DNA of 64,000 nt, from positions 186,001 through 250,000 of the forward strand of contig NZ_CP021033.1 in the NCBI RefSeq assembly GCF_002117485.1, read 5' to 3'. Positions 6,567 to 47,425 of this stretch are shown one piece after another (positions within the stretch are counted from its first letter, which is position 1; every line of letters starts with the position of its first letter). The position numbers and the translations under genes were made by a program. The notes under the pieces are model-generated. The model was given only the letters and a program-made list of their open reading frames with translations, had not been told where the DNA came from and did not search any database. The DNA comes from Rhizobium sp. NXC14 (GTDB taxonomy: Bacteria; Pseudomonadota; Alphaproteobacteria; Rhizobiales; Rhizobiaceae).

Positions 6567-7592
6567 TTACATGCCGGCGCCGTAGATACCGTCGATCGCC
6601 TCCGCCACTGCGATAAAATTCTCACACGCGGGATCGTAGCGCTGGCCTGCGGCCAGCTTTCTTGCCCAATCCACGGCAGCCCTTCCGCCCCAATCATCCG
6701 GGGGGAGGGCCAGAGTTTCGCTCGAAGTGCCGGACATCCTGATGGCCGTAAAATCGTAGAATGAGCCATGGACATTCCTGAGGGAGGCCCCTCCCTCCGT
6801 TCCGAAGAAATCGGCGCCGATCTCGGCGTCACAACCGGCATTGAGACGCCAGGAGCATGTCAGTCGGATGATTTCGCCGCCGGCGAGCGTCAGCGTTGCG
6901 GCTGCAAAATCCTCGACCTGACCGTTGTTTTCGAGCCTTTCCCCACCGGCTCTCAAAGCGCTCGTGACATTGGTGACGAAGGGGAAATCGAGGCACCATA
7001 AGGCCAGGTCGACGAGGTGAACGCCGAGATCGATGACGCAGCCGCCGCCGGACTGGCTCTTATCGTAAAACCAGGGTTTATCCGGGCCATAGGCGTTGTG
7101 GAAAGTCAGATCGGCCGCAAAGATCTTTCCGAGGGCATGCGAGCGGATGAGCTGCCGGATCTGCTGCATGCCTTGCGTGTGTCGATAGGAAAGATCGACG
7201 CCAAGCAGCCTGTCGGCGGTTCTGGAAGCATCGACGACAGCCCTGACCTCGGATGCCGTTCGGCCAAGCGGCTTCTGGCAGAAGACGGCAAAGCCTGCCC
7301 CAAGGGCGCGGATCGACTGTTCGGCATGTGTGGCGCTCGGCGTTGCGATCACGACGCCGTCGAGCTCCTGCGCCAGCAACCCGTCCAGATCGGCGACGAT
7401 CCTGGCATCCGGGGCAAGCGCCAGGGCCTCTCGGGCCATATTTGTTGAGGGGTCGGCGATGGCGACTGCCTCGGCCACGCCGCTCCCGAGGATCGCTTTC
7501 ATCCGATGCCGGCCGATCCAGCCTACGCCGAGAAAGCCGAGCTTCAGCCGTTTGGCGTTCGCCGCATTTTCTTCGGAAATCAACACATTCAT
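6567..7592 (-). CDS. Gfo/Idh/MocA-family oxidoreductase
   Basis: This 341-residue NAD(P)-dependent oxidoreductase has the N-terminal Rossmann motif GFLGVGWIGRHRM, a CQKPLGRTASEV segment (the Lys-Pro of the EKP motif) and the second-domain GGCVIDLGVHLVDLALW, typical of the family. These enzymes act on sugars, inositols or nucleotide-linked sugars. Its ATG overlaps the stop of the preceding Zn-dehydrogenase gene (7589-7592). The pair diverges from the glycan cassette across the 8579-8776 region, so a role in making or oxidising a sugar used there is plausible but inferred. Confidence 0.9.
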   Translation of the reverse strand: MNVLISEENAANAKRLKLGFLGVGWIGRHRMKAILGSGVAEAVAIADPSTNMAREALALAPDARIVADLDGLLAQELDGVVIATPSATHAEQSIRALGAGFAVFCQKPLGRTASEVRAVVDASRTADRLLGVDLSYRHTQGMQQIRQLIRSHALGKIFAADLTFHNAYGPDKPWFYDKSQSGGGCVIDLGVHLVDLALWCLDFPFVTNVTSALRAGGERLENNGQVEDFAAATLTLAGGEIIRLTCSWRLNAGCDAEIGADFFGTEGGASLRNVHGSFYDFTAIRMSGTSSETLALPPDDWGGRAAVDWARKLAAGQRYDPACENFIAVAEAIDGIYGAGM

Positions 7593-8578
7593 GAATATTG
7601 CACCAGAGCCTTGAGAAAACCGTTAGGCCGGTCGCGAGTCGTGTTGAGGGCGTCGTCCAGCCTCTCCAGCGGATAGATATGCGTGTAGAGCGGCTGCGGA
7701 TCGATCCGGCCCTGGCGCACGGCTTCTATGGCGTCGCGAATGCCTTTGATATAGACGGCCGGCTCGCGCTCATGAGCGTTGATGACGTCGAGCCCGCGCC
7801 AGTTCCAAAGCTGCATGTTGATTTGACGAGGCCCGTCCTGGTGATAGCCGGCAATGATCAGTCGCCCCCGTTCCTTCGTAAGCTCGCCCGCCAGGTCGAG
7901 CGGCCATTGTTTGCCGACGGCTTCGATGACGCAGTCGCAGAATTTTCCGCCCGTAAGTGCTTTGACGCTCTCGATGATTTGCCAATGATCGTCCATCGGA
8001 ATGGTCTCGGCCGCTCCCATCTCTCTCGCCACCTCGAGTGAATAGGGCCTGCGCGAGATGGCGATCACCCTTGCGCCGGCTGCCGCGGCAAGCCGGGTGA
8101 GGAGGGCGCCCAGGAAACCGATGCCGATAATGACGACGGTCTGGCCGCGCTCGATGTTGCTGCGGCCGAAGATGTTCATGGCGCAGCCGAGCGGTTCGCC
8201 CGGAAAGGGCTTGCCATCCAACTCCTTCGGCAGTGATGCGACCATCGAGGCATCGGCAATGTCGTGCGTGGCGTAGGCATGGTAGGAAAGAGCGGCAACC
8301 CGCTCTCCCAAGCGAATTCCCGTGACATCGGGGCCAATGGCATCGACAATACCCCAGCCCTCGTGGCCTAATCCACCCGCCTCGGTGGGGAACGTCATCC
8401 AGTCCGGTCCGGCCCAGGGCGTGAGGTTCGAGGCGCAGACGCCGCATCCTTCCAGTTTAACCCTGACCTGGCCCGGACCGGGTTCGGGCAGGGGGCGGGT
8501 CTCCACCGAGATATGTCCGGGGCCGGTGACGATGGCAGCCCGCATGAGCCCGGCCTTCTGTGTCGCCGCAATGTCCAT
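7589..8578 (-). CDS. zinc-binding alcohol dehydrogenase family protein (MDR), one zinc site
   Basis: This MDR dehydrogenase of 329 residues has the catalytic-site motif CGVCASNL, GHEGWG (GLGHEGWGIVD) and the cofactor motif VIIGIGFLGALL. The four-cysteine structural zinc lobe of classical alcohol dehydrogenases is missing, as in sorbitol/threonine-dehydrogenase-like variants. The ATG at 8578 is preceded by GGAGGAC; the upstream in-frame ATG at 8599 would not have a site. It is cotranscribed and overlaps with the Gfo/Idh/MocA gene. Both face the glycan cassette divergently, so they may supply or recycle a sugar intermediate. Confidence 0.87.
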   Translation of the reverse strand: MDIAATQKAGLMRAAIVTGPGHISVETRPLPEPGPGQVRVKLEGCGVCASNLTPWAGPDWMTFPTEAGGLGHEGWGIVDAIGPDVTGIRLGERVAALSYHAYATHDIADASMVASLPKELDGKPFPGEPLGCAMNIFGRSNIERGQTVVIIGIGFLGALLTRLAAAAGARVIAISRRPYSLEVAREMGAAETIPMDDHWQIIESVKALTGGKFCDCVIEAVGKQWPLDLAGELTKERGRLIIAGYHQDGPRQINMQLWNWRGLDVINAHEREPAVYIKGIRDAIEAVRQGRIDPQPLYTHIYPLERLDDALNTTRDRPNGFLKALVQYS

Positions 8579-8667
8579 GAGATGTCCTCCATGTGGCACC
8601 CCTAGAACAATAGGCCTCCTGAAGAGTTCCGGTAGAGCTCAAAGAAGTCATTGATGATGAAGTCAAT

Positions 8668-8707
8668 AAAGATGTCATTGAAGCAGGAAAGATGTCATTG
8701 AAGCAGG
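8668..8707. repeat. exact tandem duplication of a 20-bp unit in a divergent promoter region
   Basis: The unit AAAGATGTCATTGAAGCAGG occurs twice back to back (8668-8687 and 8688-8707) in the 198-base region between the minus-strand dehydrogenase gene and the plus-strand cassette. A degenerate third relative (AAAGAAGTCATTGATGATGA) lies just upstream at about 8641. The repeats could be regulator sites or a recent slippage duplication. Confidence 0.7.
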
Positions 8708-8776
8708 AACTTTTCCATCCGCGTTCGGTTCGGCGCCTATCTCCGAAGCAAATTATTCAACCGGACGGATCTCATA

Positions 8777-9880
8777 ATGACGATTTTGATAACTGGCGGG
8801 TGCGGCTTCATTGGTCGCCACGTTGCTGAAGAACTTCTGAACAACGGCTATGAGGTGCGCATCCTCGATGCGCTGATCGACCAGGTGCATGGCGATGCCG
8901 AAGTCAGCGTGCCTGATGGAGCCGAGATTATTCAAGGCGACGTCAGAGACAAGGACGCCGTGCGGGCGGCGCTTGCCGGTGTGAACGGCGTCATCCATCT
9001 CGCTGCCGAAGTAGGCGTCGGACAGTCGATGTACGAAATTGCCCGCTATGTCGGCTGCAACGACCTCGGCACGGCGGTGCTCCTCGAAGCCATGATCGGC
9101 CTTCCCGTCAAGACGATCGTCGTCGCCTCATCGATGAGTGTCTATGGAGAGGGGCTCTATCGGACTGCGGATGGAAAGCGGCTCGGCTATGTCAGGCGAC
9201 GCATGCAGCATGTCAAGCAGGGCAAGTGGGATCCGCTTGATCGGGACAACCAGCCGCTGACTCCGGTCGCCACCGATGAGGAGAAACCGGTCGATCTTGC
9301 GTCCATTTACGCTTTGACGAAATACGCCCAGGAGAGGCAGGTTCTGATTTTCGGTGAAGCCTACGGCCTGGATGCCGTCGCGCTGCGTCTCTTCAACGTT
9401 TTCGGCGCGGGCCAGGCGCTTTCCAATCCTTATACGGGCGTACTCGCCAATTTCGGTTCGCGCCTCGCCAACGGCCAGCCGCCGATGATCTTCGAGGACG
9501 GCAGGCAGCGGCGCGATTTCGTCCATGTCCGCGATGTGGCGACAGCCTTCCGCCTGGCTCTGGAAAAACCCGCGGCAGCCGGTCACGTGATCAATATCGG
9601 CAGCGGCCAGGCCTATTCGATCGCCGATGTCGCGACGCTTCTCGCCGATGCCATGGGCGTGCCCGAGATCGGCCCTGACATCATGAACAAGGCGCGTTCG
9701 GGTGACATCCGCAATTGCTTCGCCGACATTTCCAAGGCGCGCGAACTCCTCGGCTTCGAACCGAAATATCGTCTCGAAAATGCGCTCGCGCCCTTCGCCG
9801 AATGGGTGCGGCAGACGGGGGCTGTCGATCGTGGCGCCGAAATGAAGCGGCAACTGGAAGAGCGGGGGCTGGTTTCATGA
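8777..9880 (+). CDS. NAD-dependent epimerase/dehydratase (extended SDR)
   Basis: This 367-residue nucleotide-sugar epimerase/dehydratase has the cofactor motif ITGGCGFIGRHV at the N-terminus, the catalytic Ser region VVASSMSVYGEG, Tyr-x3-Lys as YALTK, and the late motif RRDFVHVRDVATAF. It is likely to act on an NDP-hexose or NDP-pentose. It is the first gene of the plus-strand glycan cassette; its stop overlaps the next start by ATGA. The upstream site is weak (GGACGG). The exact stereochemical outcome cannot be told from sequence. Confidence 0.9.
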   Translation: MTILITGGCGFIGRHVAEELLNNGYEVRILDALIDQVHGDAEVSVPDGAEIIQGDVRDKDAVRAALAGVNGVIHLAAEVGVGQSMYEIARYVGCNDLGTAVLLEAMIGLPVKTIVVASSMSVYGEGLYRTADGKRLGYVRRRMQHVKQGKWDPLDRDNQPLTPVATDEEKPVDLASIYALTKYAQERQVLIFGEAYGLDAVALRLFNVFGAGQALSNPYTGVLANFGSRLANGQPPMIFEDGRQRRDFVHVRDVATAFRLALEKPAAAGHVINIGSGQAYSIADVATLLADAMGVPEIGPDIMNKARSGDIRNCFADISKARELLGFEPKYRLENALAPFAEWVRQTGAVDRGAEMKRQLEERGLVS

Positions 9881-11919
9881 ACAAGGCCGGTTCTCGAGCA
9901 GCCGATCAGCAGGAGACGAGACAATTCGGTTTTGTCGAATGGTTCCGGCCCGGAGAATATGAGCGGACCGAGATCGTGCTGCCGGATATGCTGAGATGCG
10001 GAGCCAGCTATCTCCGTACGCATCTTTCCTGGGCCGAATATCTGGCCCCCGGCGGCAAGGAATGGTTCGATTGGCTGATCCCGCGTATCGGCAGTGAAAT
10101 CGATCTCCTGCCCTGCATACACTACACGCCGCCTTCTCTGTCCCGGACGGGCAGGTCTTCGGGTCCGCCGGTCGATCTCAAGTCCTATGCTGACTTCGTT
10201 GATCATGTCCTGACGCGCTATGGCCGCTATATCAGCCATGTCGAGCTCTGGAACGAACCGAACAACCTGCTTGATTGGGACTGGCGCCACGACAGCGACT
10301 TCCTGCTTTTCTGCGAAATGGTCGGAGGCGCCGCCTTCTGGGCGAAGCAGAGGGGCTATAAGCCGGTGCTTGGCGGCCCGTGCCCCTTCGATCCCCATTG
10401 GCTCAATCTGATGGGCACGCGCGGCGTACTTGGCGTCGTCGATGCAATCGGTTTCCACGGTTTCCCTGGAACCTGGGACAGCGAGGAGGCAAGCTGGGGC
10501 GGCTGGGACATGCATCTCGGAGAGATGCGTGGGATTATCGATCGTTATAATGCCGATGCAGAAATATGGATCACCGAAACCGGCTACTCCACCTGGCGCA
10601 ATGACGAGATCGAACAGGCGCGGCGCTTCATCAACGCGCTGAAAGTACCGGCCGATCGCATGTACTGGTATTCATGGCGCGACGTGCCGCCGGATGTTCC
10701 GGTTCAGGAAGGCCTGTGGTTCGATCCCAGGCATTATCATCTGGGCGCTGTCAGCCACGACAATAAACCGAAGCTGCTTGCACGCCTTCTTATGGAGGGA
10801 GGCGTCAAGAGGCTGGAGGAGGTCGCCGCCCTTGCCGCTCCCAACATCGCCTCTGGCGCCGCGCCGATCATCGTCACCGGCGGCAGCGGGTTTGTCGGCT
10901 GCAATCTCGCCGATAGCCTGCTGAGCGACGGCGAGGACGTCATCATTCTCGACAATCTGGCGCGATCTGGAGTCGATCAGAATCTCTCCTGGCTGAAAGA
11001 TCGGCATGGCGGGCGGGTGCATCCGGTCCTCGCCGACGTTCGCGATCTGCTAGGCATCGAAGCAGCCTTCAGGGATGCCAAGGCAGTGTTCCACTATGCT
11101 GCGCAAACGGCGGTGACCACCAGCCTCGTCGACCCGCTGCAAGATTTCGAAACGAATGCGCGCGGCACGCTGAATGTGCTGGAATCGGTGCGCAGGGCAG
11201 GCAAACGGGCGCCGGTCATCTTCGCCAGCACCAACAAGGTCTATGGCGCTCTCGACGATCTCGGCATGATCGAACTCGACGATCGTTATCTTCCCGAAAA
11301 CGAGACCGTCAGGAGGCAAGGGATCGGCGAGGACCGGCCGCTCGATTTCTGCACGCCTTACGGATGTTCGAAGGGTGTGGCCGATCAGTATATTCTCGAC
11401 TACGCAAAGTCCTACGGCATCCCTGCCGCCGTCCTGCGGATGAGCTGCATCTACGGACCGCGTCAGTTCGGCACCGAGGACCAGGGCTGGGTGGCGCATT
11501 TCCTGATCCGTGCGCTCGGCGGCGAGCCCATTTCCATCTACGGCGACGGCAAGCAGGTGCGGGACATTCTGCATGTCGATGATGCCGTCGCTGCCTATCG
11601 GGCGCTGTTTTCCAATATCGAGCGGGTCAGCGGCAAAGCCTTCAACCTCGGCGGAGGGCCGCGTAACGCCGTCAGCGTGCTCGCGGTGCTGCGCGAGATC
11701 GAAGTGCTTGCGGGCCATCCTGTCGAAACCAGCTTTGGCCCATGGCGCGCCGGCGATCAACTCTATTTCGTGGCCGACACGACGAGACTTGAACAGGAAA
11801 CCGGCTGGCGAGCCGGAATCGGATGGCGTCATGGTTTGCGGCACCTCGCCGAATGGCTGACGGCCCATCGTTTCGGTGGCCGGCAGATCCGCAGAGAAAA
11901 GCGGAAGGCATCGGCATGA
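9877..11919 (+). CDS. fusion protein: clan-A glycoside hydrolase + NAD-dependent nucleotide-sugar epimerase
   Basis: This 680-residue protein has two enzymes in one chain. Residues about 1-320 resemble clan-A (GH39/GH5-type, beta-xylosidase-like) glycosidases, with the acid/base motif ELWNEPNN near residue 125 and the nucleophile segment WITETGYS near residue 232. Residues about 326-680 form an extended SDR: IIVTGGSGFVGCNL, catalytic YGCSK, and VRDILHVDDAVAAY, closest in style to CDP-paratose 2-epimerase. No signal peptide is seen, so the hydrolase part is predicted cytosolic. The ATG at 9877 overlaps the preceding stop; the frame opens earlier only as shadow. A cytosolic glycosidase fused to an epimerase is unusual. 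Confidence 0.85.
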   Translation: MNKAGSRAADQQETRQFGFVEWFRPGEYERTEIVLPDMLRCGASYLRTHLSWAEYLAPGGKEWFDWLIPRIGSEIDLLPCIHYTPPSLSRTGRSSGPPVDLKSYADFVDHVLTRYGRYISHVELWNEPNNLLDWDWRHDSDFLLFCEMVGGAAFWAKQRGYKPVLGGPCPFDPHWLNLMGTRGVLGVVDAIGFHGFPGTWDSEEASWGGWDMHLGEMRGIIDRYNADAEIWITETGYSTWRNDEIEQARRFINALKVPADRMYWYSWRDVPPDVPVQEGLWFDPRHYHLGAVSHDNKPKLLARLLMEGGVKRLEEVAALAAPNIASGAAPIIVTGGSGFVGCNLADSLLSDGEDVIILDNLARSGVDQNLSWLKDRHGGRVHPVLADVRDLLGIEAAFRDAKAVFHYAAQTAVTTSLVDPLQDFETNARGTLNVLESVRRAGKRAPVIFASTNKVYGALDDLGMIELDDRYLPENETVRRQGIGEDRPLDFCTPYGCSKGVADQYILDYAKSYGIPAAVLRMSCIYGPRQFGTEDQGWVAHFLIRALGGEPISIYGDGKQVRDILHVDDAVAAYRALFSNIERVSGKAFNLGGGPRNAVSVLAVLREIEVLAGHPVETSFGPWRAGDQLYFVADTTRLEQETGWRAGIGWRHGLRHLAEWLTAHRFGGRQIRREKRKASA

Positions 11920-13028
11920 GCGAACATGAACGAAGCAAGCGGCACCGCCGCGTGCTGATGACGGTTGATGCCATCGGCGGCGTCTGGCGTTACGCGATGG
12001 ATTTGGCCGCAGCCCTGAAATCGAACAACATCGAGGTTGTTTTTGCGGGGCTGGGGCCTTTCCCGACAGACGACAAGGTTGCGGAGGCTAGCCGGGCCGG
12101 CAAGCTCGTCTGGCTGGATGCGCCGCTCGACTGGACGGTCGAGAATGAACAGGCAGTTGCCGAAGTTCCGGGGCTGATCGCCGATCTCGCGCGCCGGGAA
12201 CAGGCCGATCTTCTGCATCTCAATCTGCCGTCGCAGGCGGCGGGCATGGAAACAAACCTGCCGATTGCCGTGGTTTGCCATTCCTGTGTCGTCACTTGGT
12301 TTGCCGTCGTCCGCGGAAGTGAAGTCCCAAAGGACTGGCAATGGCAGTATCGGCTGAACCAGGAGGGCTTTGCATGTGCGGACGCGGTGATCGCACCAAG
12401 CCGCAGCCACGCTAGAGCGATGGAAGCGGCCTATGGAACGATCGGAAATCTCCAGGTCGTTTATAACGCCAGCGCTCTTGAGGCCTCCGACGAGCCCAAG
12501 CAGGAGTTTGTTCTTGCCGCCGGGCGCTGGTGGGACGACGGCAAAAACGGCACGGTGCTTGATAAGGCTGCAGCTATGACGCGATGGACGGTGGCGGCGG
12601 CCGGCGCGACCACCGGTCCCAATGGCCAGACCATGCGATTTCGCCATGCCGATCACCGCGGCGAGCTTTCGCATGAGCGGATGAGCGCCTTGACGCGGCG
12701 GGCGGCCATCGTCGCCTCGGCGTCCCTCTACGAGCCTTTCGGTCTAGCCGCTCTCGAGGCGGCGCGGGCGGGCGCGGCCTTGGTGCTTTCTGATATCCCA
12801 ACCTATCGCGAGATATGGGACGGGGCTGCTCTTTTTGCCGAGCCTCATCGCTCCGATGCCTTCGCCGATGCTTTCAATAGGCTTGCCGACGATCCGCAGC
12901 TGCGGGCAGCGTTCGGACGAAAAGCGCGTGCCAGGTCCGCCGCCTTCAGCGTCGAGGCTCAGGCAGAGGCGATGTGCGCGATCTATTCCGGCATGCGGGC
13001 GCGTGGCTTTTCAACAGCAGCGGAGTAA
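11916..13028 (+). CDS. glycosyltransferase family 4-like
   Basis: This 370-residue GT-B glycosyltransferase has an N-terminal domain starting VLMTVDAIGGVWRYAMDLA, a typical GT4 opening with a glycine-rich loop. Its C-terminal domain carries ASLYEPFGLAALEAARAGAA, the E-x7-E donor-binding motif. The ATG at 11916 overlaps the preceding stop (ATGA). No membrane segment is seen. It is expected to transfer a sugar from an NDP or GDP donor to a growing lipid- or protein-linked glycan. Donor and acceptor are unknown. Confidence 0.88.
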   Translation: MSEHERSKRHRRVLMTVDAIGGVWRYAMDLAAALKSNNIEVVFAGLGPFPTDDKVAEASRAGKLVWLDAPLDWTVENEQAVAEVPGLIADLARREQADLLHLNLPSQAAGMETNLPIAVVCHSCVVTWFAVVRGSEVPKDWQWQYRLNQEGFACADAVIAPSRSHARAMEAAYGTIGNLQVVYNASALEASDEPKQEFVLAAGRWWDDGKNGTVLDKAAAMTRWTVAAAGATTGPNGQTMRFRHADHRGELSHERMSALTRRAAIVASASLYEPFGLAALEAARAGAALVLSDIPTYREIWDGAALFAEPHRSDAFADAFNRLADDPQLRAAFGRKARARSAAFSVEAQAEAMCAIYSGMRARGFSTAAE

Positions 13029-13030
13029 TC

Positions 13031-14161
13031 ATGAAGTTTGTCTTTTACACCCATTCGCTGGTCTCCGACTGGAATCACGGCAATGCTCATTTTCTTCGCG
13101 GCGTCATGCGCGATCTCCAGCGGCGCGGTCATGAGACGCTGGCGCTGGAGCCGCAGGATGCCTGGAGCCGGGCCAATCTGGTGCGAGACCAGGGGGCGGC
13201 TGCGGTCGAGGCATTTCACCAGGCATTTCCGCAGCACCGTTCGCGGACTTATGGAGTCGAGTTCGACCACGAAGCAGTGCTTGCCGACGCCGACGTCGTC
13301 ATCGTTCACGAGTGGACGGAACCGCAATTGGTCGAGAGGCTCGGCCGCATCCGGCGCGATGGCGCGACCTTCACCCTGCTTTTTCACGATACGCATCACC
13401 GGGCTGTCTCCGCCGAAGGCGATATCGCGGGGCTGGCGCTTGACGACTATGATGGTGTGCTGGCCTTCGGGCAGACGCTGCGCGACCGTTATCTCAGAGC
13501 CGGCTGGGGAAAGTCGGTCTTTACCTGGCACGAGGCGGCCGACGACGCCCTGTTTCGGCCGCTGCCGGAGATCGAGAAAACCGGAGACCTCATCTGGATC
13601 GGCAACTGGGGCGACGACGAACGGTCCGCCGAAATCGGCGAATTCCTGATCCGTCCCGCCAGAGATCTCGGATTGAACACGGTCGTTCGCGGCGTGCGCT
13701 ATCCCGGCCGTGCATTGGACGAGCTGCGCAAGGCCGGCATCGCCTATGGCGGCTGGATAGCCAATGCCGACGTTCCCGCGGCCTTCGCCCGCCATAGGGT
13801 CACCGTACACATTCCGCGCCGACCCTATGTCGAACATCTGCCGGGTATTCCAACCATCCGTGTCTTCGAGGCGCTCGCCTGCGGAATACCCCTGCTTTCG
13901 GCGCCCTGGAATGACGCCGAACATCTGTTCGAACCCGGCAGGGACTATTTGGTCGTCGGTGATGGCGAGGAGATGAAGAAAAGCCTGCGCGATATCCTCT
14001 CCGATACCGATCTGGCTACAAGCCTTGCCGCTGCCGGCCTCGAAACGATCAAGGCCCGTCACACCTGCCGCCACCGCGTCGACGAGCTTTTCGCCATCCT
14101 GGCGCGCTGCGGCACGCATAGGGTCACCGCAAACCTGCAATCCAGGGAGGCCGCCGAATGA
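13031..14161 (+). CDS. glycosyltransferase, CgeB-like (copy 1)
   Basis: This 376-residue glycosyltransferase has an N-terminal FVFYTHSLVSDWNHGNAHFL and a C-terminal CgeB/Glyco_trans_1_2-type motif IRVFEALACGIPLLSAPWND followed by EHLFEPGRDYLVVGD. The ATG at 13031 comes just after the previous stop (gap of 2 bases); the longer frame from 12974 overlaps the previous gene. It is the first of three tandem relatives with the same opening pattern (FY/FLG..SL, then WG/WN.G.A), which suggests successive additions to one glycan. The donor sugar is unknown. Confidence 0.82.
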   Translation: MKFVFYTHSLVSDWNHGNAHFLRGVMRDLQRRGHETLALEPQDAWSRANLVRDQGAAAVEAFHQAFPQHRSRTYGVEFDHEAVLADADVVIVHEWTEPQLVERLGRIRRDGATFTLLFHDTHHRAVSAEGDIAGLALDDYDGVLAFGQTLRDRYLRAGWGKSVFTWHEAADDALFRPLPEIEKTGDLIWIGNWGDDERSAEIGEFLIRPARDLGLNTVVRGVRYPGRALDELRKAGIAYGGWIANADVPAAFARHRVTVHIPRRPYVEHLPGIPTIRVFEALACGIPLLSAPWNDAEHLFEPGRDYLVVGDGEEMKKSLRDILSDTDLATSLAAAGLETIKARHTCRHRVDELFAILARCGTHRVTANLQSREAAE

Positions 14162-15246
14162 AGATCGCCTTTTATGGTTCGAGCCTCGTCTCCGCCTATT
14201 GGAACGGCGCCGCCACCTATTATCGCGGCCTGCTGAGGGCGCTGGCGGAGAAGGGTTATGACATCACCTTCTATGAGCCCGATGTCTATGATCGGCAGAA
14301 GAACCGCGACATGGATCCGCCGGACTGGTGCAGGGTCGTCGTCTACGAAGGGACGATTGACGCCCTCAAGGCCGTCGCAATCGAGGCGGCCGAGGCTGAT
14401 ATCGTCGTCAAGGCAAGCGGCGTCGGTTTCGAGGACGACCGATTGCTGGAAGAGGTGCTGCGCAATGCCCGGCCCCAAGCGTTGAAGATCTTCTGGGACG
14501 TGGACGCGCCGGCGACGCTTGCCGAACTCAGGGCCAACCCAGATCATCCGTTGCGCCGTGCGCTCGCCGGGCTTGATCTCGTGCTGACCTATGGCGGCGG
14601 CGATCCTGTCGTGAGCGCATACCGTTCCGTCGGAGCGGCCGAATGCGTGCCGATCTACAATGCGCTGGACCCGCAAACGCATCATCCGGTGCCGCAGGAC
14701 TACCGCTTCGCGGCCGACCTAGGGTTCCTTGGCAACCGCCTGCCGGATCGCGAGGCGAGGGTCGAGCATTTCTTCCTGGAACCGGCGTCTCGTCTGCCGA
14801 ACCGGACATTCCTGCTTGGCGGATCCGGCTGGCAGGACAAGCCGATCCCTTCAAACGTCCGCTATATCGGCCATGTCCCGACGCGCGATCACAATGCTTT
14901 CAACGTGACGCCGATGGCGCTCCTCAACATATCGCGCGCCAGTATGGCGGAGAATGGTTTTTCCCCTGCGACGCGCGTCTTCGAGGCGGCTGGCGCAGGG
15001 GCTTGCCTTATTACCGATTACTGGGAAGGCATCGATGTCTTTCTGAAGTCCGGCGAGGAGGTCCTGGTCGCCCGCGACGGACAGGACGTGGCTGCCCTGC
15101 TCAGCGGCTTGTCCCGGCAAGCCGCACGGGAAATCGGAGAAAGGGCGCGTCGGCGCGTTCTGGCCGAACATACCTATGTCAATCGCGCCGAAACGGCGGA
15201 CGAGATTTTTCGCGCCCGTCTTGGCGCGCGGGAGGCAGCTGAATGA
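14158..15246 (+). CDS. glycosyltransferase, CgeB-like (copy 2)
   Basis: This 362-residue protein begins MKIAFYGSSLVSAYWNGAAT, parallel to the openings of the genes on either side. The C-terminal motif is TRVFEAAGAGACLITDYWEG followed by VFLKSGEEVLVARDG, matching the CgeB type (R-x-FE...D...F..G.E.). It overlaps both neighbours by ATGA, so the three transferases are translationally coupled. The region before the motif contains GFLGNRLPDREARVEHFFLEPA, also shared with copy 3. Substrates are unknown. Confidence 0.85.
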   Translation: MKIAFYGSSLVSAYWNGAATYYRGLLRALAEKGYDITFYEPDVYDRQKNRDMDPPDWCRVVVYEGTIDALKAVAIEAAEADIVVKASGVGFEDDRLLEEVLRNARPQALKIFWDVDAPATLAELRANPDHPLRRALAGLDLVLTYGGGDPVVSAYRSVGAAECVPIYNALDPQTHHPVPQDYRFAADLGFLGNRLPDREARVEHFFLEPASRLPNRTFLLGGSGWQDKPIPSNVRYIGHVPTRDHNAFNVTPMALLNISRASMAENGFSPATRVFEAAGAGACLITDYWEGIDVFLKSGEEVLVARDGQDVAALLSGLSRQAAREIGERARRRVLAEHTYVNRAETADEIFRARLGAREAAE

Positions 15247-16343
15247 CGAGACCGCTCGACATCGTCTTCCTCGGCCTCTCTCTTTCCTCTTCCTGGGGAA
15301 ATGGCCATGCCACGACCTATCGCGCCTTGATCAAAGGCCTTAGGCAGGGTGGCCATAGGGTCCTGTTCCTGGAGCGGGACGTGCCTTGGTATGCCAGCCA
15401 TCGGGACCTGCCTTCGCCTGATTTCTGCGAGCTCGCCTACTATTCCGGTATCGGCGCAATGGTCGAGCGTCACGGCGAAAGGCTCGGCAAGGCCGATGCC
15501 GTCATCGTCGGATCCTACGTTCCCGATGGTGTGCCGCTCATCGACAGGCTCGAGGCGCTGGAGCTGAAACGGCTCTGCTTCTATGACATTGACACGCCGG
15601 TCACCCTCGCCAAGCTCGATCGCGGCGATGAGGAGTATCTGGCGCTGCGCCAGATTCCTTTATTTGACACCTACTTCTCCTTCTCCGGGGGAAGGGTGTT
15701 GACGCGGCTCGAACAGAGATATGGCGCGCGCAGGGCCATCGCGCTCTATTGTTCGGTCGACCAAGACCGCTATGCTGATACCGGCGAGCCCACTTGCTGG
15801 GATCTCGGCTATCTCGGAACCTATAGCCCCGACCGCCAAACCACACTGGAGCGGCTTCTGCTGGAGCCGGCGCGCCGCCTGCCGTCGATGCGCTTCGTTG
15901 TCGCCGGGCCGCAATATCCCGCCCAGATCGAATGGCCGGCCAACGTCGAGCGCATCGAGCATCTGCCGCCTGCCGATCACGCAAGCTTTTACAGCCGGCA
16001 GCGGTTCACGCTGAACGTGACCCGCGGCGACATGATCGCCGCCGGCTGGTCTCCCAGCGTGCGGCTGTTCGAGGCTGCCGCCTGCGGGGCGCCCATTATC
16101 AGCGACTTCTGGCAGGGCCTCGATGAGCTGCTGCCGGACGGCGAAGCCTTGTTCATTGCGCGCGCGCCGGAGGATGTCGTGGCGCTGCTGACGGAGCTTC
16201 CCGACTCCGACCGTCTGGCCGTCGCCGCCGCAGCGAGAAAGCTGGTGATGAGCAGTCATACCGGTGCCGCACGTGCCGGTGAGCTCGTCGGGGCTCTTTC
16301 CGACCTGCCCACCAATCCAGCTTTTGAGCGTATCTCAGCGTGA
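15243..16343 (+). CDS. glycosyltransferase, CgeB-like (copy 3)
   Basis: This 366-residue protein begins MTRPLDIVFLGLSLSSSWGN and has the CgeB-type C-terminal motif VRLFEAAACGAPIISDFWQG, then LLPDGEALFIA. A central GYLGTYSPDRQTTLERLLLEPA segment aligns with that in copy 2. It overlaps the previous gene by ATGA and ends 12 bases before the UDP-sugar decarboxylase-like gene. No membrane helix is seen. Like its relatives it is probably cytosolic and acts on a lipid-linked or soluble acceptor. Confidence 0.85.
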   Translation: MTRPLDIVFLGLSLSSSWGNGHATTYRALIKGLRQGGHRVLFLERDVPWYASHRDLPSPDFCELAYYSGIGAMVERHGERLGKADAVIVGSYVPDGVPLIDRLEALELKRLCFYDIDTPVTLAKLDRGDEEYLALRQIPLFDTYFSFSGGRVLTRLEQRYGARRAIALYCSVDQDRYADTGEPTCWDLGYLGTYSPDRQTTLERLLLEPARRLPSMRFVVAGPQYPAQIEWPANVERIEHLPPADHASFYSRQRFTLNVTRGDMIAAGWSPSVRLFEAAACGAPIISDFWQGLDELLPDGEALFIARAPEDVVALLTELPDSDRLAVAAAARKLVMSSHTGAARAGELVGALSDLPTNPAFERISA

Positions 16344-16355
16344 AGGAGAGTATCG

Positions 16356-17402
16356 ATGCTTCAAGTCAATCGTCGCGGAAAAGGCAAGACTGTTCTGGTG
16401 GCAGGAGGCGCCGGCTTTGTCGGCTCGCATCTCTGCGATGCTCTGCTCGGCCGTGGCGACACCGTCATTTGCGTCGACAGCTATATTACCGGCTCTCCGG
16501 ACAATGTCAGGCCGTTGATGAACCATCCGGGCTTCCGGCTCATCGAACAGGATATCTGCAAATTCATTGAAATCGACGAACCGCTCGACCAGATCTACAA
16601 TCTGGCCTGCGCCGCGTCCCCGCCGCAATATCAGGCGGATCCCGTACACACGATGATGACGTGCGTCGCCGGTACGGGCAATCTGCTGGCGCTTGCCGAG
16701 CGGCATCGGGCCGCCTTTCTTCAGGCCTCCACGAGCGAGGTCTATGGCGATCCCGCCGAGCATCCGCAAAAGGAAGACTATCGCGGTAATGTCAGCTGCA
16801 CAGGACCGCGCGCCTGCTATGACGAGGGAAAGCGCGCCGCCGAAGCTCTTTGCTTCGACATGCTGCGTGGCGGCCGCGTCGACGTGCGGGTCGCCCGCAT
16901 CTTCAACACCTATGGGCCGCGAATGCAGGCCAATGACGGCCGGATCGTCTCCAACCTGATCGTGCAGGCCCTCTCGGGGAAACCGCTCACCATCTACGGA
17001 AGCGGCATGCAGACCCGGTCCTTCTGCTACGTCAGCGATCTTGTCGGCGGCCTCATGGCGCTGATGGATGTGCGGCCGAACCCCGGCGTGCCCGTCAACC
17101 TCGGCAATCCCGGGGAGTTCACCATCAACGAGCTCGCGCAGATGATCCGTTCAATGGTGCCGGTACGAACGGCTGTTGCCTACAGACCTTTGCCGAAGGA
17201 TGATCCTCAACGCCGCCGGCCCGATATTTCCCGCGCGACAGAACTTCTCGATTGGCAGCCGACGGTGCCCCTTGCCGAGGGGCTCAGATATACGATCGAC
17301 TGGTTTTCCGCCAATTTGGATGATGGTCCCCGGAAACGCGTCGCTGCGCCTCGCCGTCATCGCGCCGGGGCCGCCTCGCAGGCTGCCCCCTTGGACAACT
17401 GA
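16356..17402 (+). CDS. NAD-dependent UDP-glucuronate decarboxylase-like protein (UXS family)
   Basis: This 348-residue extended SDR has VLVAGGAGFVGSHLCDALL at the N-terminus, STSEVYGDP, the catalytic segment GPRACYDEGKR, RIFNTYGPRM and LPKDDPQRRRPDIS. This set is characteristic of UDP-xylose synthase (UDP-glucuronate decarboxylase), which makes UDP-xylose. The C-terminal 25 residues are basic and look like an extension. AAGGAG lies 6-8 bases upstream of the ATG. In this cassette it would supply UDP-xylose for one of the transferases, which fits the xylosidase-like domain of the fusion protein. The reaction is inferred from motifs. Confidence 0.85.
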   Translation: MLQVNRRGKGKTVLVAGGAGFVGSHLCDALLGRGDTVICVDSYITGSPDNVRPLMNHPGFRLIEQDICKFIEIDEPLDQIYNLACAASPPQYQADPVHTMMTCVAGTGNLLALAERHRAAFLQASTSEVYGDPAEHPQKEDYRGNVSCTGPRACYDEGKRAAEALCFDMLRGGRVDVRVARIFNTYGPRMQANDGRIVSNLIVQALSGKPLTIYGSGMQTRSFCYVSDLVGGLMALMDVRPNPGVPVNLGNPGEFTINELAQMIRSMVPVRTAVAYRPLPKDDPQRRRPDISRATELLDWQPTVPLAEGLRYTIDWFSANLDDGPRKRVAAPRRHRAGAASQAAPLDN

Positions 17403-17419
17403 CCGAGAGGATGCACGCG

Positions 17420-18154
17420 ATGATGAACCTGGCTTTGCAACAGCGTATCAACGAACTGGGCCCCTGGTTTCAGAATATGCGGTTCGGAGAGATCGAAACC
17501 GCGCCGGATCATTTTCTCGGCGACTATCCGGCGTTCAAATGGGAAGGCTTCAAGCATGTCGTGCCCAAGGATCTGGAAGGACGCAGCGTTCTCGATATCG
17601 GCTGCAATGCCGGCTTTTATGCGCTCGAGATGAAGCGCCGCAATGCCGGGCGGGTGTTGGGCATTGACAGCGATCCACGTTATCTCGAGCAGGCGCGTTT
17701 CGCCGCCGATCATTTCCGCCTCGATGTCGAGTTCAGGCAGATGTCGGTTTATGAGGTGTCGAAACTCCAGGAGAGGTTCGATCTGGTGCTCTTCATGGGC
17801 GTGCTTTACCATCTGCGCCATCCGATGTTGGCATTGGATCTGCTCTACGAGCACGTGGTTGCAGATCTCATGCTGTTCCAATGCCTGCAGCGTGGCGAAG
17901 AAGGCATCGCCACGCTTGAAGGAGACTACGACTTTTCGGAATGGAAGATTTTTGAGCGGCCGGATTTTCCGAAACTGTTCTTTGTCGAAGAACGTTATGC
18001 TGCCGATCCGACGAATTGGTTCATTCCCAACAAGGCAGCGGTCGAAGCGATGCTGCGCAGCTCGGGCTTTGTCATAGAGGCCCATCCCGAGCGAGAAGTT
18101 TATCTCTGTCGCCGAGGCCGGCGGCCATACATGGTCGAGCCGCCGCCCGGTTGA
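17420..18154 (+). CDS. SAM-dependent methyltransferase, CmoB/DUF1698-like
   Basis: This 244-residue class-I methyltransferase has the SAM-binding motif VLDIGCNAGFYALEM, the acidic strand-2 end GIDSDPRYLEQA, and LFMGVLYHLRHP. These are similar to the tRNA cmo5U methyltransferase CmoB family, but the protein is shorter than CmoB and is embedded in a glycan cassette. It may methylate a sugar. ATGs occur at 17411, 17420 and 17423; GAGAGG at 17405-17410 gives normal spacing to 17420. It follows the decarboxylase gene closely. Confidence 0.82.
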   Translation: MMNLALQQRINELGPWFQNMRFGEIETAPDHFLGDYPAFKWEGFKHVVPKDLEGRSVLDIGCNAGFYALEMKRRNAGRVLGIDSDPRYLEQARFAADHFRLDVEFRQMSVYEVSKLQERFDLVLFMGVLYHLRHPMLALDLLYEHVVADLMLFQCLQRGEEGIATLEGDYDFSEWKIFERPDFPKLFFVEERYAADPTNWFIPNKAAVEAMLRSSGFVIEAHPEREVYLCRRGRRPYMVEPPPG

Positions 18155-19142: not shown

Positions 19143-19316
19143 CGCATATCTGCGCAAATCATCGCAGACTGCCACGGAGTTGGATTCGCCGACCGGCAGA
19201 AGAAGGCAAGGACGCGGCCGACCTTAGAGGATATTATCTGCCACAATACCACAGATCGGGAACAGGCCATTAACGTGAACGTTTTTGTCCTTGAGGCATG
19301 ATACCGGGAGCAGATA

Positions 19317-20477
19317 GTGGTGAACACGGTATTTGACAAACTCGCGCGACAGGCTGTCCTGATCGTTGAGGATGATTACACGCTTGCCAGCGAGCTGGCG
19401 TCCAAACTAAGCCAAGCCGGGATCAATGTCGTCGGGCCAGCGCCCAATGTCGAACAAGCGCTGAAATACATTGAGGATTCCAAGATTGAAGTCGCCATAT
19501 TGGACATCAATCTGGGGGGGGCGATGGTATTTCCCGTCGCCGATGAGCTGTCGAGGCGCAATATCCCGTTTTTCTTCGCGACTGGTTACAGCCGGGACGT
19601 CGTTCCTCCCCGGTTCGCCGATCGAATTTTCGTGGAAAAGCCGTTGGACACGAGCGCGATTTACGGTGCCCTTTCCACTTGCCGCAACACCACACCGAAA
19701 CCAGCGGATGGCCAAAGGAACCTGGTTCTTTCGGCGCTTTCTTCCCGCGAAATTGATCTTGTTCGCCCGCTTCTCCAGCCCATTCGGCTGGCCCAAGGCG
19801 AGGTTCTTGAACAACAATTCGGAGAGATAACGACTGTTTTTTTCATCGAAAGCGGCACAGTTTCGGTGGTCGCCTCGGCTCCAACCGGTCCGCGGGTCGA
19901 GGTTGGCCTCATCGGGCGTGAAGGCCTGACCGGCAGTGGGCTGTTGGAGGGGGATTGGCGCACGCCTTATGATCTGGTCGTGCTGACAGAAGGCAGCGCC
20001 CAGCGCATTGATATCGACGGATTCCTTCGTCTGATGCAGCGAGCGCCGCAACTACGCTCTCTTGCATCTTCGTTTTCAAGGACACTCGCAATCCAGATCG
20101 GTTATACGGCTCTCGCCAACAGCCGCTATTCCATCGAGCAGAGACTGGCCCGCTTGCTGCTCATGCTGAATGATCGATCGGAAGACCAGTTGCTGCTTCT
20201 GACCCACGAACACATGTCTTCCATGCTCGGCGTCCGACGGTCCGGAGTTACGAGCGCGCTTCCAATCCTGGAGGGGGAAAAACTCATCAGGTCTGTGCGA
20301 GGAAAGGTCATTGTTGTCGATCGGGAGGGCCTTGTCGTCAAAGCCAATGGGTCTTACGGCATCCCCGAGGCGGAATACGAGCGCGTGATGGGGTTTTCAT
20401 TGCGAGGCACCGGGAATGCCAAAAAGCCTCTCGGCCGGCCTCACTTTTACGCACCGAATAACAGGGAGAAATGGTAA
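19317..20477 (+). CDS. response regulator with receiver domain fused to a Crp/Fnr-type regulator
   Basis: Residues about 12-120 form a receiver (VLIVEDDYTLA, phospho-acceptor Asp in AILDINLGG, FATGYS, and VEKPLD with the conserved Lys). Residues about 140-260 form a cyclic-nucleotide-binding-like beta domain (GEVLEQQF, FIESGTVSVV, GREGLTGSGLL). Residues about 280-350 form a Crp-type helix-turn-helix (MSSMLGVRRSGVTSALPILE). It starts at GTG 19317. Most rhizobial relatives of the Crp part lack a receiver, so this makes a phosphorylation-controlled Crp protein likely. It is the first gene of a signalling block with a kinase hybrid; a damaged partial copy lies at 35110-35560. Confidence 0.85.
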   Translation: MVNTVFDKLARQAVLIVEDDYTLASELASKLSQAGINVVGPAPNVEQALKYIEDSKIEVAILDINLGGAMVFPVADELSRRNIPFFFATGYSRDVVPPRFADRIFVEKPLDTSAIYGALSTCRNTTPKPADGQRNLVLSALSSREIDLVRPLLQPIRLAQGEVLEQQFGEITTVFFIESGTVSVVASAPTGPRVEVGLIGREGLTGSGLLEGDWRTPYDLVVLTEGSAQRIDIDGFLRLMQRAPQLRSLASSFSRTLAIQIGYTALANSRYSIEQRLARLLLMLNDRSEDQLLLLTHEHMSSMLGVRRSGVTSALPILEGEKLIRSVRGKVIVVDREGLVVKANGSYGIPEAEYERVMGFSLRGTGNAKKPLGRPHFYAPNNREKW

Positions 20478-22164: not shown

Positions 22165-25100
22165 ATGGATAGACGAATGGCATACGACGAACGGGAAGAC
22201 ATGGAGCAACAGGCGGGCGCGTCCGAGCAGGACCAATGGGAGCGGCCGCTCGTGATCGTCGGCATAGCAGTGTGCGCGCGGTCGCTTCCGTCGCTGGAGC
22301 GGATATTCGCCGAAGTCGGCGTTGGCCTCGGCGCATCCTATCTCGTAGCGGTGCGCCAGCAGGAAGGGCTCACCACAGCTGCCGTCTTTGAAATGTTACA
22401 GCGGCAGGAACGACTGCCGGTGACGGTCGCCGTGGATGGAGAGCCCATTCTTCCGAACCATATCTACATCGGCGGGTCCGACGATACGATCACCCTCGAG
22501 GATGGTCATATCCGGGTTCGGGCGGCCCCGGAACCAGTTGGGCACCGTGGCACCGTCGACACCATGTTGATCTCGCTGGCAGAACATGCTCACGAACGCG
22601 CCATTGCAGTGGTGCTGGCGGGTCTGGAAAGTGACGGCACGGCCGGGGTGGCGGCAACCAAAAAATTCGGGGGGCTCTCGATCGTAGAGATCAGCGAGAG
22701 CGACGACAGATCTCCCGAAGAAGCAGGAGGGGCGCTGGCGATCGCCGACCTCAGATTGCCGGCTGAGAGTATTGCAGGTCACATCACGCTTTATGCCGGC
22801 AATGTCGCCGAGGAGGAAGATGTCGGCCTTGATGACGAGCCGGTGAGCGCCCTGGAGGCGCAGATCACGCAGATCGCCACGGTTCTGCGCAATGTCACCA
22901 GTCACGACTTCCACGGATACAAGCGCGGAACTTTCACACGGCGTGTCCAGCGGCGCATGCAGGTGCTTCAGATCGGCAACATCGACAGCTATATCGAGCG
23001 GCTGCGCGCCAGCCGCGATGAGGTGCAAAACCTTTTTCAGGATCTGCTGATCGGCGTCACTCAATTTTTCAGAGATCCGGCAGAGTTCGAAGCGCTCGAG
23101 CGTGAAATTCCAAGGCTGTTCGAGGGCAAAGAGCCGGGCGACCAGCTGCGCGTCTGGGTGCTTGGTTGCGCGACCGGGGAGGAAGCCTATTCGATCGCGA
23201 TGCTGCTGCGCGAGCATATGGCGAAGATGGATTACCCTCCGGATGTGCAGATCTTCGCGACAGACCTCGATGCCCGTGCGCTGGGGATTGCGCGTGCGGG
23301 GCGCTATTCAGCTGCGATCACCTCTCAGATCCAGCCCGACCGGCTCGCACGCTGGTTCGTGCGTGAGGGCGATACTTATTGCGTCGTAAAGGAATTGCGG
23401 GAGATGTGCATCTTCTCGCCCCACAACATCGTCAAGGATGCGCCGTTCTCCCGAATCGACATTCTGTCTTGCAGGAACTTGCTGATCTATCTCGATAGCG
23501 AGCTGCAAAACAGGGTCATCCCGATCTTCCACTTCGCTCTCAGGCCGAGCGGCATCCTGTTTTTGGGATCGTCGGAAAACGTTACCCGTCACGCCAAGCT
23601 TTTCGCGCCCATCGACCGCAAGAACCGACTGTTTCGAAGGCTCGAGACAGCGACCCGCATCATTCCGGACTTTCCGCTCAGTCCACGCCCGCGCAGCCCC
23701 GACCATGCCCTTTCCGCGCCGGCTCCGACGCTGCAAACCGGCCGGCTGTCGGCGACGATCAGTCGGCAGGCCGAAGTGGTCGCCGAGCGCTTCGCGCCAG
23801 CCTATGTCGTGGTCGATTCGCATTATGACGTGCTGCACTTTTCAGGCCGCACGGGCCGCTATCTGGAGCCGATGTCAGGGACAGCGACCCTTAATCTCCT
23901 CAGTTTGGCGCATCGGGATCTCAGGCTCGATATGCGCTCCGCGCTGCAGCGTGCCACGACTGAGGCCGTCAAGGTGGAAGTGCCCAGGGTGCTGCTGCGT
24001 CAGGATGATCGCACTTACGCCGTCAATATCATTGTCGAACCGCTCGGCAGCGGCGACGTCACCTCGCTGATCGTGCTGTTCCAAGATGCGGGGCAGGTGG
24101 CCGAGGGGACAGCGCCCGACGGCGGACGGCTGACGAGCGAAGAGCATGTCCAGCGCCTGGAAACCGATCTGCGCGTCACCCGGGACCGGCTTCAGGCGAC
24201 GATCGAGGAATTGGAATCGACCAATGAGGAACTGAAGTCTTCCAACGAAGAGTATCAGTCGATCAATGAGGAACTGCAGTCGGCGAACGAGGAGATGGAA
24301 ACCTCAAAAGAGGAGTTGCAGTCGGTCAACGAGGAACTGCAGACCGTCAATGGCGAGCTTGCGCATCGCGTCACCGAGCTGGACCGCACGAATTCTGACC
24401 TGAAGAACTTGCTTGAGGCAACGCAGATCGCCACCGTGTTCCTCGACAATGATCTGCGCGTCAGGAGCTTCACGCCGGCGGCGACGGAAATATTCCACCT
24501 GCTGGAAACCGATGTCGGACGGCCGCTCGATCACGTCGTTTCGCGCGTTGCATATCCGGAGCTCCTGGACGATGTTCGTCTCGTTCTCAGGACGCTGGTG
24601 CCAGTAGATCGAAAAGTCAGCGACCCGACGAACAACCGCCACTACGCCGCGCGTGTCCTGCCATATCGCAGTGTCGACAACTATATCAGCGGGGCTGTCG
24701 TGACGTTCACAGATTTGACCGCAACTTACGAGGCGGAGGTTGCGCTTCGCCGCAGCGAAGAGCGCTTGCAGCGTGTCCTGGAGACGGATGCAGTTGGAGT
24801 GGTGTTCATCAATCAGGAGGGCGTCATCTGCGATGCCAACGAGGTGTTCCTGAAGATGACAGGCTATACGCGCTCGCAAATGGAGCGCTCCGAGCTGCAC
24901 TGGCGACGGCTGACGCCGGCTGAGCACCTTGCGGAGACCGAAGCGCAGATGGCTGCGGTGAAAGAGACCGGCAAGCTCGGGCCCTATGAAAAAGAATATG
25001 TCCTCGCCGACGGGACGCGTCGCTGGATGCTGTTTGCTGGGCGCGATCTTGGCGATGGCACGATTGCCGAGTTCTGCATCGACATCTCGGCGCGCAAACA

Positions 25101-47302: not shown

Positions 47303-47425
47303 AAATAGAATGTACCGGCTACAAGGCGAATCTGGCATAAGCTGAATTATGGAACAGCGGCACAAGTGGCGACCTCCAAAGCTGGAGGTGAGCGTTCTGT
47401 GGCACAAAGCGGTGAGCCGCCGTAC

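Follow-up and report, generated by a model that had tools for sequence, protein, structure and literature searches.

Promoter motifs of the general-stress type precede a conserved ten-gene cassette of Rhizobium, a candidate pathway to a small methylated, xylose-containing glycoside

What does a tightly packed run of sugar-modifying genes make, and when? The question was raised by a 64,000-nucleotide stretch of Rhizobium sp. NXC14 (G000:C4:186001-250000; "the window" below means this whole stretch), which lies on an 889-kb contig of a 6.7-Mb genome in four contigs. The main new result of the analysis is regulatory: motifs of the type used by EcfG, the general-stress sigma factor, precede both operons of a ten-gene cassette. 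For the product, the reading that we prefer, and to which we give an even chance, is that the EcfG-switched cassette gives rise in the cytosol to a small oligosaccharide or glycoside that contains xylose, is O-methylated and most likely serves as a stress protectant.

The cassette was compared with 80 loci from named genomes, collected by alignment of one of its proteins, a fusion of a glycosidase-like and an epimerase-like domain. They were the best 80 of 111 stretches encoding a relative, and the presence of the fusion in all 80 is by construction, as the fusion protein was the bait. Their hosts include Rhizobiaceae, Phyllobacteriaceae, Aurantimonadaceae, Paracoccaceae, Roseobacteraceae and Geminicoccaceae. 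The closest named relatives by fusion protein were Rhizobium lentis and R. esperanzae (95-96%), and R. etli CFN 42 carries an orthologous cassette (93.7%) on plasmid p42b.

Eight genes were found on the plus strand at 8777-18154, four of their junctions being ATGA overlaps and the remaining gaps 2, 12 and 8 bases. Coordinates and junctions bore out the tight coupling described in a first-pass annotation of this DNA. Its count of eight genes also stood, although the enzymes that it listed sum to nine unless the fusion is one of its "two epimerases". The span that it gave for the whole set, 8777-18154, was too short and left out two minus-strand genes of the unit. The ten genes are as follows.

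6567..7592, minus strand: Gfo/Idh/MocA-family oxidoreductase (Gfo; PF01408/PF22725), near the cassette in 72/80 loci.
7589..8599, minus strand: Zn-dependent dehydrogenase (PF00107/PF08240), overlapping the Gfo gene by 4 bases, near the cassette in 77/80 loci.
8777..9880, plus strand: Epi1, putative NAD-dependent nucleotide-sugar epimerase/dehydratase, GalE-like (PF01370; best PDB match 6wjb).
9877..11919, plus strand: fusion of a glycosidase-like domain (about 9913-10842) and a CDP-tyvelose-2-epimerase-like domain (about 10855-11877).
11916..13028, plus strand: GT4-type glycosyltransferase (PF13439 and PF00534).
13031..14161, plus strand: CgeB-type glycosyltransferase 1 (CgeB1; PF13524), a separate clade.
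14158..15246, plus strand: CgeB-type glycosyltransferase 2 (CgeB2; PF13524), predicted GT-B fold (AlphaFold2 predicted local distance difference test score 90.9).
15243..16343, plus strand: CgeB-type glycosyltransferase 3 (CgeB3; PF13524), a separate clade.
16356..17402, plus strand: predicted UDP-glucuronate decarboxylase of the UDP-xylose synthase type (UXS), E 1e-104 to 4gll over residues 11-323.
17411..18154, plus strand: S-adenosylmethionine-dependent methyltransferase (MT) of the TIGR04290 family, 379 bits (cut-off 300).

The annotated length of the R. etli dehydrogenase orthologue (990 bases) would put the start of that gene at 8578.

The first-pass annotation had proposed a search for the same gene order elsewhere, and all eight genes were found in order in 65/80 loci. 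The order Epi1-fusion-GT4-CgeB1 was kept in 80/80, CgeB2 was present in 79/80, CgeB3 in 78/80, UXS in 76/80 (on the opposite strand in L074) and MT in 67/80. Some of the losses were at contig ends and some were real (L071 lacks four genes). Such recurrence is far beyond chance.

The dehydrogenase and Gfo genes were divergent from the cassette in 66 loci, co-directional upstream in 8 and downstream in 3. Since they accompany it in 77/80 and 72/80 loci, the pair belongs to the unit, which is one of ten genes in two operons, 6567-18154, conserved across many alphaproteobacteria. No additional gene family in the flanks exceeded 17/80, and in 44 further loci the commonest additional families reached 8 loci.

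A second sample was obtained by searching for TIGR04290 in drawn genomes, avoiding hand-picked loci. The family was present in 15/199 genomes (order set), 14/289 (class set) and 14/398 (phylum set), the three sets overlapping. In the 199-genome set the C2-epimerase occurred in 16 genomes, 14 of them in common with TIGR04290. The sampled loci comprised 40 stretches from 37 genomes, with the window's own genome left out; three of the stretches (L130, L133, L138) came from G055, G092 and G155 as separate C2-epimerase loci, not as TIGR04290 matches. A subset of 27 stretches showed both the C2-epimerase and the GT4 gene.

Between the two operons of the window, one motif was found for each direction.

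8706..8730, plus strand: EcfG-type motif GGAAC-N17-GTT for the eight-gene run, at -71 relative to the start codon of Epi1 (GGAACTTTTCCATCCGCGTTCGGTT).
8606..8630, minus strand: EcfG-type motif GGAAC-N17-GTT for the divergent pair, before the dehydrogenase.

The pattern GGAAC-N18/19-TT was then searched for across the loci within 200 bp upstream of estimated starts. It lay ahead of Epi1 in 76/80 loci (77/80 within 300 bp), against 1.8/80 for shuffled upstream regions, and ahead of the dehydrogenase in 62/77. The other genes gave few matches (Gfo 0/72, fusion 3/80, GT4 1/80, CgeB1 1/79, CgeB2 0/79, CgeB3 0/79, MT 0/66; UXS 8/76, or 3/76 with the N-GTT pattern), and 197/4000 random 300-bp stretches contained it.

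The Epi1 motif had a median position of -71, the 10th to 90th percentile running from -80 to -65. Among 66 motifs of 25 bases, G preceded the TT in 65 although the pattern did not ask for it, and most spacer columns varied; GGAAC and the final TT were fixed by the pattern. In the sampled loci, 14/26 inositol-3-phosphate synthase (INO1) genes, described below, also had the motif ahead of them (random control 87/4000). The promoter motif is well supported.

The window's genome contains a PhyR-type gene (PhyR_sigma2 match, E 2.9e-26). A second PhyR_sigma2 match, about 0.5 kb off on the opposite strand, fell in a 188-residue frame that is probably an ECF sigma gene. The fused cassette of Xanthomonas sacchari (L100), a gammaproteobacterium, has a different gene order and no motif ahead of it; this was counted in favour of EcfG, which PMC3892343 describes as exclusive to alphaproteobacteria.

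Several observations weigh against EcfG control. The motif reported for R. etli EcfG1 in the same paper is GGAAC-N16-CGTT, and the exact CGTT box occurred in only 6/80 window-type promoters. No motif was found within 21 kb in Roseomonas (L101), an alphaproteobacterium. In the sampled loci the motif lay ahead of Epi1 in only 11/24 and of the dehydrogenase in 1/8. According to the part of PMC8877191 consulted, E. aridi tolerated the loss of rpoE2. With these points taken in, we still consider EcfG control of the cassette, with transcription by EcfG from its promoters, highly probable.

Across positions 1-64000 there were 16 GGAAC-N17/18-GTT motifs against 2.67 expected, and 0/100 shuffles reached 16. 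The window therefore looks like a stress-gene region.

Other genes of the window were inspected by eye. An apparent cyanophycin set (cyanophycinase-like, isoaspartyl-peptidase-like and cyanophycin-synthetase-like) lies at 26662-31188 on the minus strand, with an EcfG-type motif at 31181-31205 (minus strand), where the first gene of the set is listed to start. At 19259-20477 such a motif stands 34-58 bases ahead of a gene for a receiver/Crp-like regulator. This gene is followed at 22165-26151 by a large CheB-CheR-kinase fusion that resembles HWE-type kinases, a group linked with the general stress response. A transposase-like gene, apparently of the IS30 type, was seen at 46250-47407 (minus strand).

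To what product might the enzymes lead? The protein encoded at 16356-17402 matched a solved UDP-glucuronic acid decarboxylase 1 (4gll) far better than the next family (2e-36) or ArnA-type enzymes (about 2e-23). Its STSEVYGDP, YDEGKR and DDPQ.R.PDI blocks align with those of solved UXS, and by full-length closeness it is classed as a UXS. The UDP-xylose supply proposed earlier was upheld by this match, and a homologue of UDP-glucose dehydrogenase, the enzyme that would feed UXS, was nearby in 12/80 loci. The best PDB match of Epi1 is named a UDP-GlcNAc C4-epimerase, and the C-terminal domain of the fusion was nearest, in fold and sequence, to the CDP-tyvelose 2-epimerase group.

The methyltransferase had been called "CmoB-like". 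It scored below both CmoB cut-offs (78.8 bits against 209, 78.2 against 275), so an identity as the CmoB tRNA methyltransferase was rejected, and its family is TIGR04290. A PDB relative, EvdMO1, an enzyme tied to everninomicin, was matched at E 8e-11. Taken together, the enzyme set suggests a product with xylose and an O-methyl group.

The three CgeB proteins matched PF13524 with E values of 4e-37, 3e-37 and 1e-35. In a tree of the window and 16 loci each position formed its own clade, with supports of 100/100, 100/99 and 97/89. A recent tandem duplication was ruled out by these three separate 17-row clades; pairwise identity within the window is 26-34%.

Structure prediction, which the first-pass annotation had proposed for all three, was carried out on CgeB2 and gave a GT-B fold. 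The Foldseek matches listed were GT-B enzymes at 11-18% identity, such as MshA, BshA and a methylmannose polysaccharide mannosyltransferase, the last being the best (7qsg, 14% identity). In the predicted model the similarity to these enzymes is at the level of fold only. Three separate, conserved CgeB transferases together with the GT4 enzyme suggest a defined product, in which about four sugars would be transferred, and not a polymer.

The glycosidase-like domain was more elusive in profile searches. Two candidate catalytic residues were located in it.

10255..10257, plus strand: E127, predicted acid/base (WNEPN), invariant in 19/19; WNEP in 120/120 homologues.
10576..10578, plus strand: E234, predicted nucleophile (TETG), invariant in 19/19; motif in 115/120 homologues.

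The fused domain had no Pfam match at E 1, and a PDB profile search with it gave two chance-like matches only (E 0.43 and 0.81). A homologue gave weak, below-cut-off matches to PF11790, GH39 and GH53. In a model of middling confidence, strands and helices alternate, and the WNEPN and TETG motifs come after strands four and seven, counted from the start; in clan-A glycosidases these are the strands whose ends usually carry the catalytic glutamates. The fold searches used the whole fusion and their lists were filled by the epimerase domain, so the absence of glycosidases from them is uninformative.

The domain is called glycosidase-like from the WNEP/TETG motifs, the predicted strand-helix pattern and the weak matches of the homologue. 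The xylosidase activity implied by the earlier label "xylosidase-like" was not supported, as no family could be assigned, and the GH39/beta-xylosidase profile was not reached (13.4 bits against a cut-off of 26, in one of two permuted homologues).

These permuted homologues belong to a sister version of the cassette, found in S. meliloti pSymB, Roseomonas, and Sphingobium and Bradyrhizobium plasmids. The sister loci have the same kinds of genes with the C2-epimerase unfused, and adjoin INO1, a histidine phosphatase and a free "beta-xylosidase". The free protein matched the fused domain in two pieces of reversed order in 5/5 comparisons: fused 119 to 299-302 with free 2 to 184-187, and fused 12-17 to 115-123 with free 192-197 to 293-301. 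On rotation of the sequence the local score, at first 234-266, rose to 320-357 (shuffles: mean 37-39, maximum 76).

In the 120 top-ranking homologues of either form, WNEP was at residue 8 in 120/120 free proteins and at 115-146 in 120/120 fused ones. The SWA marker was at residue 226 in 120/120 free and at 37-68 in 117/120 fused, the pattern not being matched in 3. By these alignments the free glycosidase is a circular permutation of the fused domain, and by the model it would begin at strand four. No Pfam cut-off was reached by either form (one fused and two free proteins tested). The free family is large, with at least 8000 candidates at E 1e-3. The permutation, the inositol version, the divergent pair and the EcfG motifs had all escaped the first-pass annotation.

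Of the 40 sampled stretches, 24 had the permuted glycosidase and INO1, 2 INO1 alone, 1 the permuted glycosidase alone and 13 neither. In the 199-genome set, 13 of 38 INO1 matches were at 70% identity or more, a line drawn after the list had been inspected, and all 13 were in TIGR04290 genomes.

Two exclusions were seen in the 27 stretches. First, a relative of a B12-radical-S-adenosylmethionine (B12-radical-SAM) enzyme was present in 15 and the dehydrogenase pair or one member of it in 8, with neither in 4 and both in 0 (Fisher P 2.2e-4). Second, the canonical fused glycosidase was present in 9 and INO1 in 15, with neither in 3 and both in 0 (P 4.7e-5). These P values overstate independence, because the sequences share descent and some stretches are cut. 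The 80 window-type loci had no radical-SAM relative and no INO1 nearby.

The radical-SAM query was the L103 protein, which scored 715 bits for TIGR04295 (cut-off 400); in sister loci, genes for its relatives are flanked by those for the C2-epimerase and GT4. We interpreted the first exclusion to mean that the dehydrogenase pair and the radical-SAM enzyme may do the same chemistry, for example inverting one hydroxyl carbon. By the second, the window type may have no need of an inositol synthase. This second exclusion holds within loci only: G092, 6/49 fused-cassette genomes and the window's genome carry INO1 elsewhere. In the last of these it lies on contig C1 (L016, 10462-15983), together with a second TIGR04290 methyltransferase, a 598-residue protein, a histidine phosphatase and a permuted glycosidase, and an EcfG-type motif stands ahead of INO1 at 13211.

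Further genes were observed in or near the sister loci. A protein of 580-600 residues is encoded beside INO1 in several loci including Roseomonas (L099 4746-6494, L016 11379-13175); it had no Pfam match above cut-off (L099, L016) and no NCBIfam match (L099). A nucleotidyltransferase and/or a phosphopentomutase was added in L103 (5011-8724), L121, L123, L129, L132, L141 and L142, the L103 phosphopentomutase scoring above the DeoB cut-off; this hints at an activated pentose-1-phosphate. Mn-catalase and DUF892 genes are annotated in L102 (1-1300), and DUF892-like and sigma-factor-like genes were recognized by eye in L118 (4657-5163) and L145 (4846-5445).

From these parts the following pathway is proposed. 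EcfG would switch on both operons, 6567-18154. UXS would decarboxylate UDP-glucuronate to UDP-xylose, and Epi1 and the C2-epimerase domain would provide one or two more nucleotide sugars. The GT4 enzyme and the three non-redundant CgeB-type transferases may attach the sugars in turn, with the TIGR04290 enzyme as the methylation step. The dehydrogenase/Gfo pair would invert or oxidize one hydroxyl, as the B12-radical-SAM enzyme would in sister loci, and the glycosidase domain might trim, recycle or transfer. In the sister version, INO1 and the phosphatase would make an acceptor or building block locally.

The place of inositol differs between the two versions. That the sister product contains inositol is somewhat favoured. 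For the window's own product it is doubtful, and the idea that the window's cassette uses an inositol acceptor made locally was weakened, as a relative of INO1 was found in only 6 of the 49 fused-cassette genomes searched (from the 80 loci). An inositol product is therefore not general for the window type.

A broader version of the proposal treats the parts as interchangeable in a stress-switched pathway whose products, methylated (xylosyl) oligosaccharides, would form a new class of stress solutes. One carbinol would be inverted either by the B12-radical-SAM enzyme or by the NAD-dependent dehydrogenase pair, and the acceptor in one version would be myo-inositol. The glycosidase would be canonical and fused without the inositol synthase, strand-rotated and free with it. 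We offer this combination, taken as a whole, as tentative.

The sister gene set also bears on a different kind of product. Cyclitol natural-product clusters resemble the set of INO1, phosphatase, dehydrogenases or B12-radical-SAM enzyme, transferases and methyltransferase, and this likeness, like the match of MT to EvdMO1, would suit a secreted small molecule, such as a cyclitol- or sugar-based signal, an antibiotic or another glycoside. We consider it unlikely: no transporter was common to the flanks of the 80 loci, and broad, near-invariant conservation with stress-type motifs would be unusual for antibiotics.

Family searches of the set, and of the flanks for anything common to the 80 loci, found no flippase, polymerase, ligase or ABC exporter. 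This agrees with the earlier remark on the missing flippase, polymerase and exporter, and no named polysaccharide locus was met in the literature searched, as expected from the earlier view that this is not a standard capsule or O-antigen locus.

Under stress the cassette might nevertheless build or decorate a surface glycan (lipopolysaccharide core, capsule side chain or glycolipid), with flipping and export machinery elsewhere. Four transferases with nucleotide-sugar enzymes are typical of such loci; the S. meliloti pSymB sister locus adjoins a polysaccharide pyruvyltransferase-family gene, and in Xanthomonas kdsB lies about 5 kb from the start of the copy, followed at a greater distance by lpxK and msbA. 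Against this, the families common to the flanks of the 80 loci lacked an acceptor-lipid enzyme as well, and the extra families of the 44 further loci, at most 8 loci each, included a sugar-uptake-type ABC ATPase in 6. Moreover, such loci usually vary between strains, whereas the eight-gene order here was kept as described. We judge a surface glycan to be clearly the less probable product, though the strongest of the alternatives.

The first-pass annotation favoured a xylose-containing glycan on a protein or small lipid carrier. The UDP-xylose supply fits, and transferases without clear membrane anchors could act on a cytosolic protein. No oligosaccharyltransferase or lipid-carrier enzyme was among the family matches, and neither a candidate target protein nor an oligosaccharyltransferase gene was common to the flanks of the 80 loci; the carrier found no backing here, and we regard this view as very improbable.

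Since genes for a carrier, flippase, polymerase and exporter are lacking, a small cytosolic product is favoured, and a small soluble product seems to us about evenly balanced between right and wrong. A protective role is suggested because the cassette is placed in the EcfG regulon, and the promoter motif suggests when the product would be made. Some results pull the other way, including the scarcity of INO1 given above. The UDP-glucose dehydrogenase homologue was found in 0/27 sampled loci. The lack of a linked exporter would also be compatible with export by shared machinery. A hydropathy scan exceeded 1.6 in 4/10 proteins (dehydrogenase 2.14, GT4 1.80, Epi1 1.77, Gfo 1.62); we interpreted these peaks as probable Rossmann cores, not membrane segments.

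No published function for the cassette was found in the literature searched, supplements and most subscription papers being beyond its reach, and the same search gave no paper on TIGR04290 and none joining inositol, glycosyltransferases and stress. Locus tags guessed from position in S. meliloti led to one paper, on the adjacent transporter. Tags guessed on R. etli p42b led to one paper, on a quinol oxidase, CgeB with UDP-xylose to papers on plant and other transferases, and circular permutation in natural glycosidase barrels to two papers. The retrieved passages on EcfG/RpoE2 regulons named no member with the make-up of this cassette. Passages of PMC3616915 report that rpoE2 overexpression in S. 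meliloti raised 202 genes, 150 of them without predicted function.

The general stress response shields plant-associated alphaproteobacteria from salt, heat and starvation, and for a large part of its regulon the function is not known. Motif evidence places in this regulon a large, near-invariant biosynthetic cassette whose reactions are few and testable. If its product protects, there would be a bearing on the survival of inoculant strains. For the step that is missing from the pathway the two exclusions offer a direct route, and the two permuted forms of the glycosidase amount to an experiment of nature in protein architecture.

How does the cassette compare with known systems? Capsule and O-antigen loci of the Wzx/Wzy or ABC type likewise have nucleotide-sugar enzymes and transferases, but a flippase, polymerase, ligase or ABC exporter was found neither in the cassette nor among the families that its flanks share. 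The methylmannose polysaccharide pathway of Mycobacterium brings together a cytosolic transferase, a methyltransferase and a glycosidase, and its mannosyltransferase is the best fold match of CgeB2. The cassette differs from it in its other sugars and its four transferases, and the likeness is at fold level only. Unlike CDP-tyvelose 2-epimerase, its relative in the cassette is fused to a glycosidase-like domain, and its C2 epimerization is a prediction.

A closer counterpart is the NCBI pair TIGR04290/TIGR04295, both "hypoth_equivalog" models. The window's MT is above the TIGR04290 cut-off and relatives of the TIGR04295 protein sit in sister loci, whereas loci of the window type carry the dehydrogenase pair, with no radical-SAM gene close by. 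As these models exist, NCBI curators had already defined two of the system's proteins, and the short name of TIGR04295, "B12_rSAM_oligo", hints at an oligosaccharide.

For regulation, passages of PMC6599016 list a Zn-dependent alcohol dehydrogenase and glycosyltransferases as EcfG-dependent in Sphingomonas melonis, a likeness to the cassette by description only. With the EcfG/RpoE2 general stress regulon itself the cassette shares the type of -35/-10 motif at promoter distance, and its genome has a PhyR-type locus.

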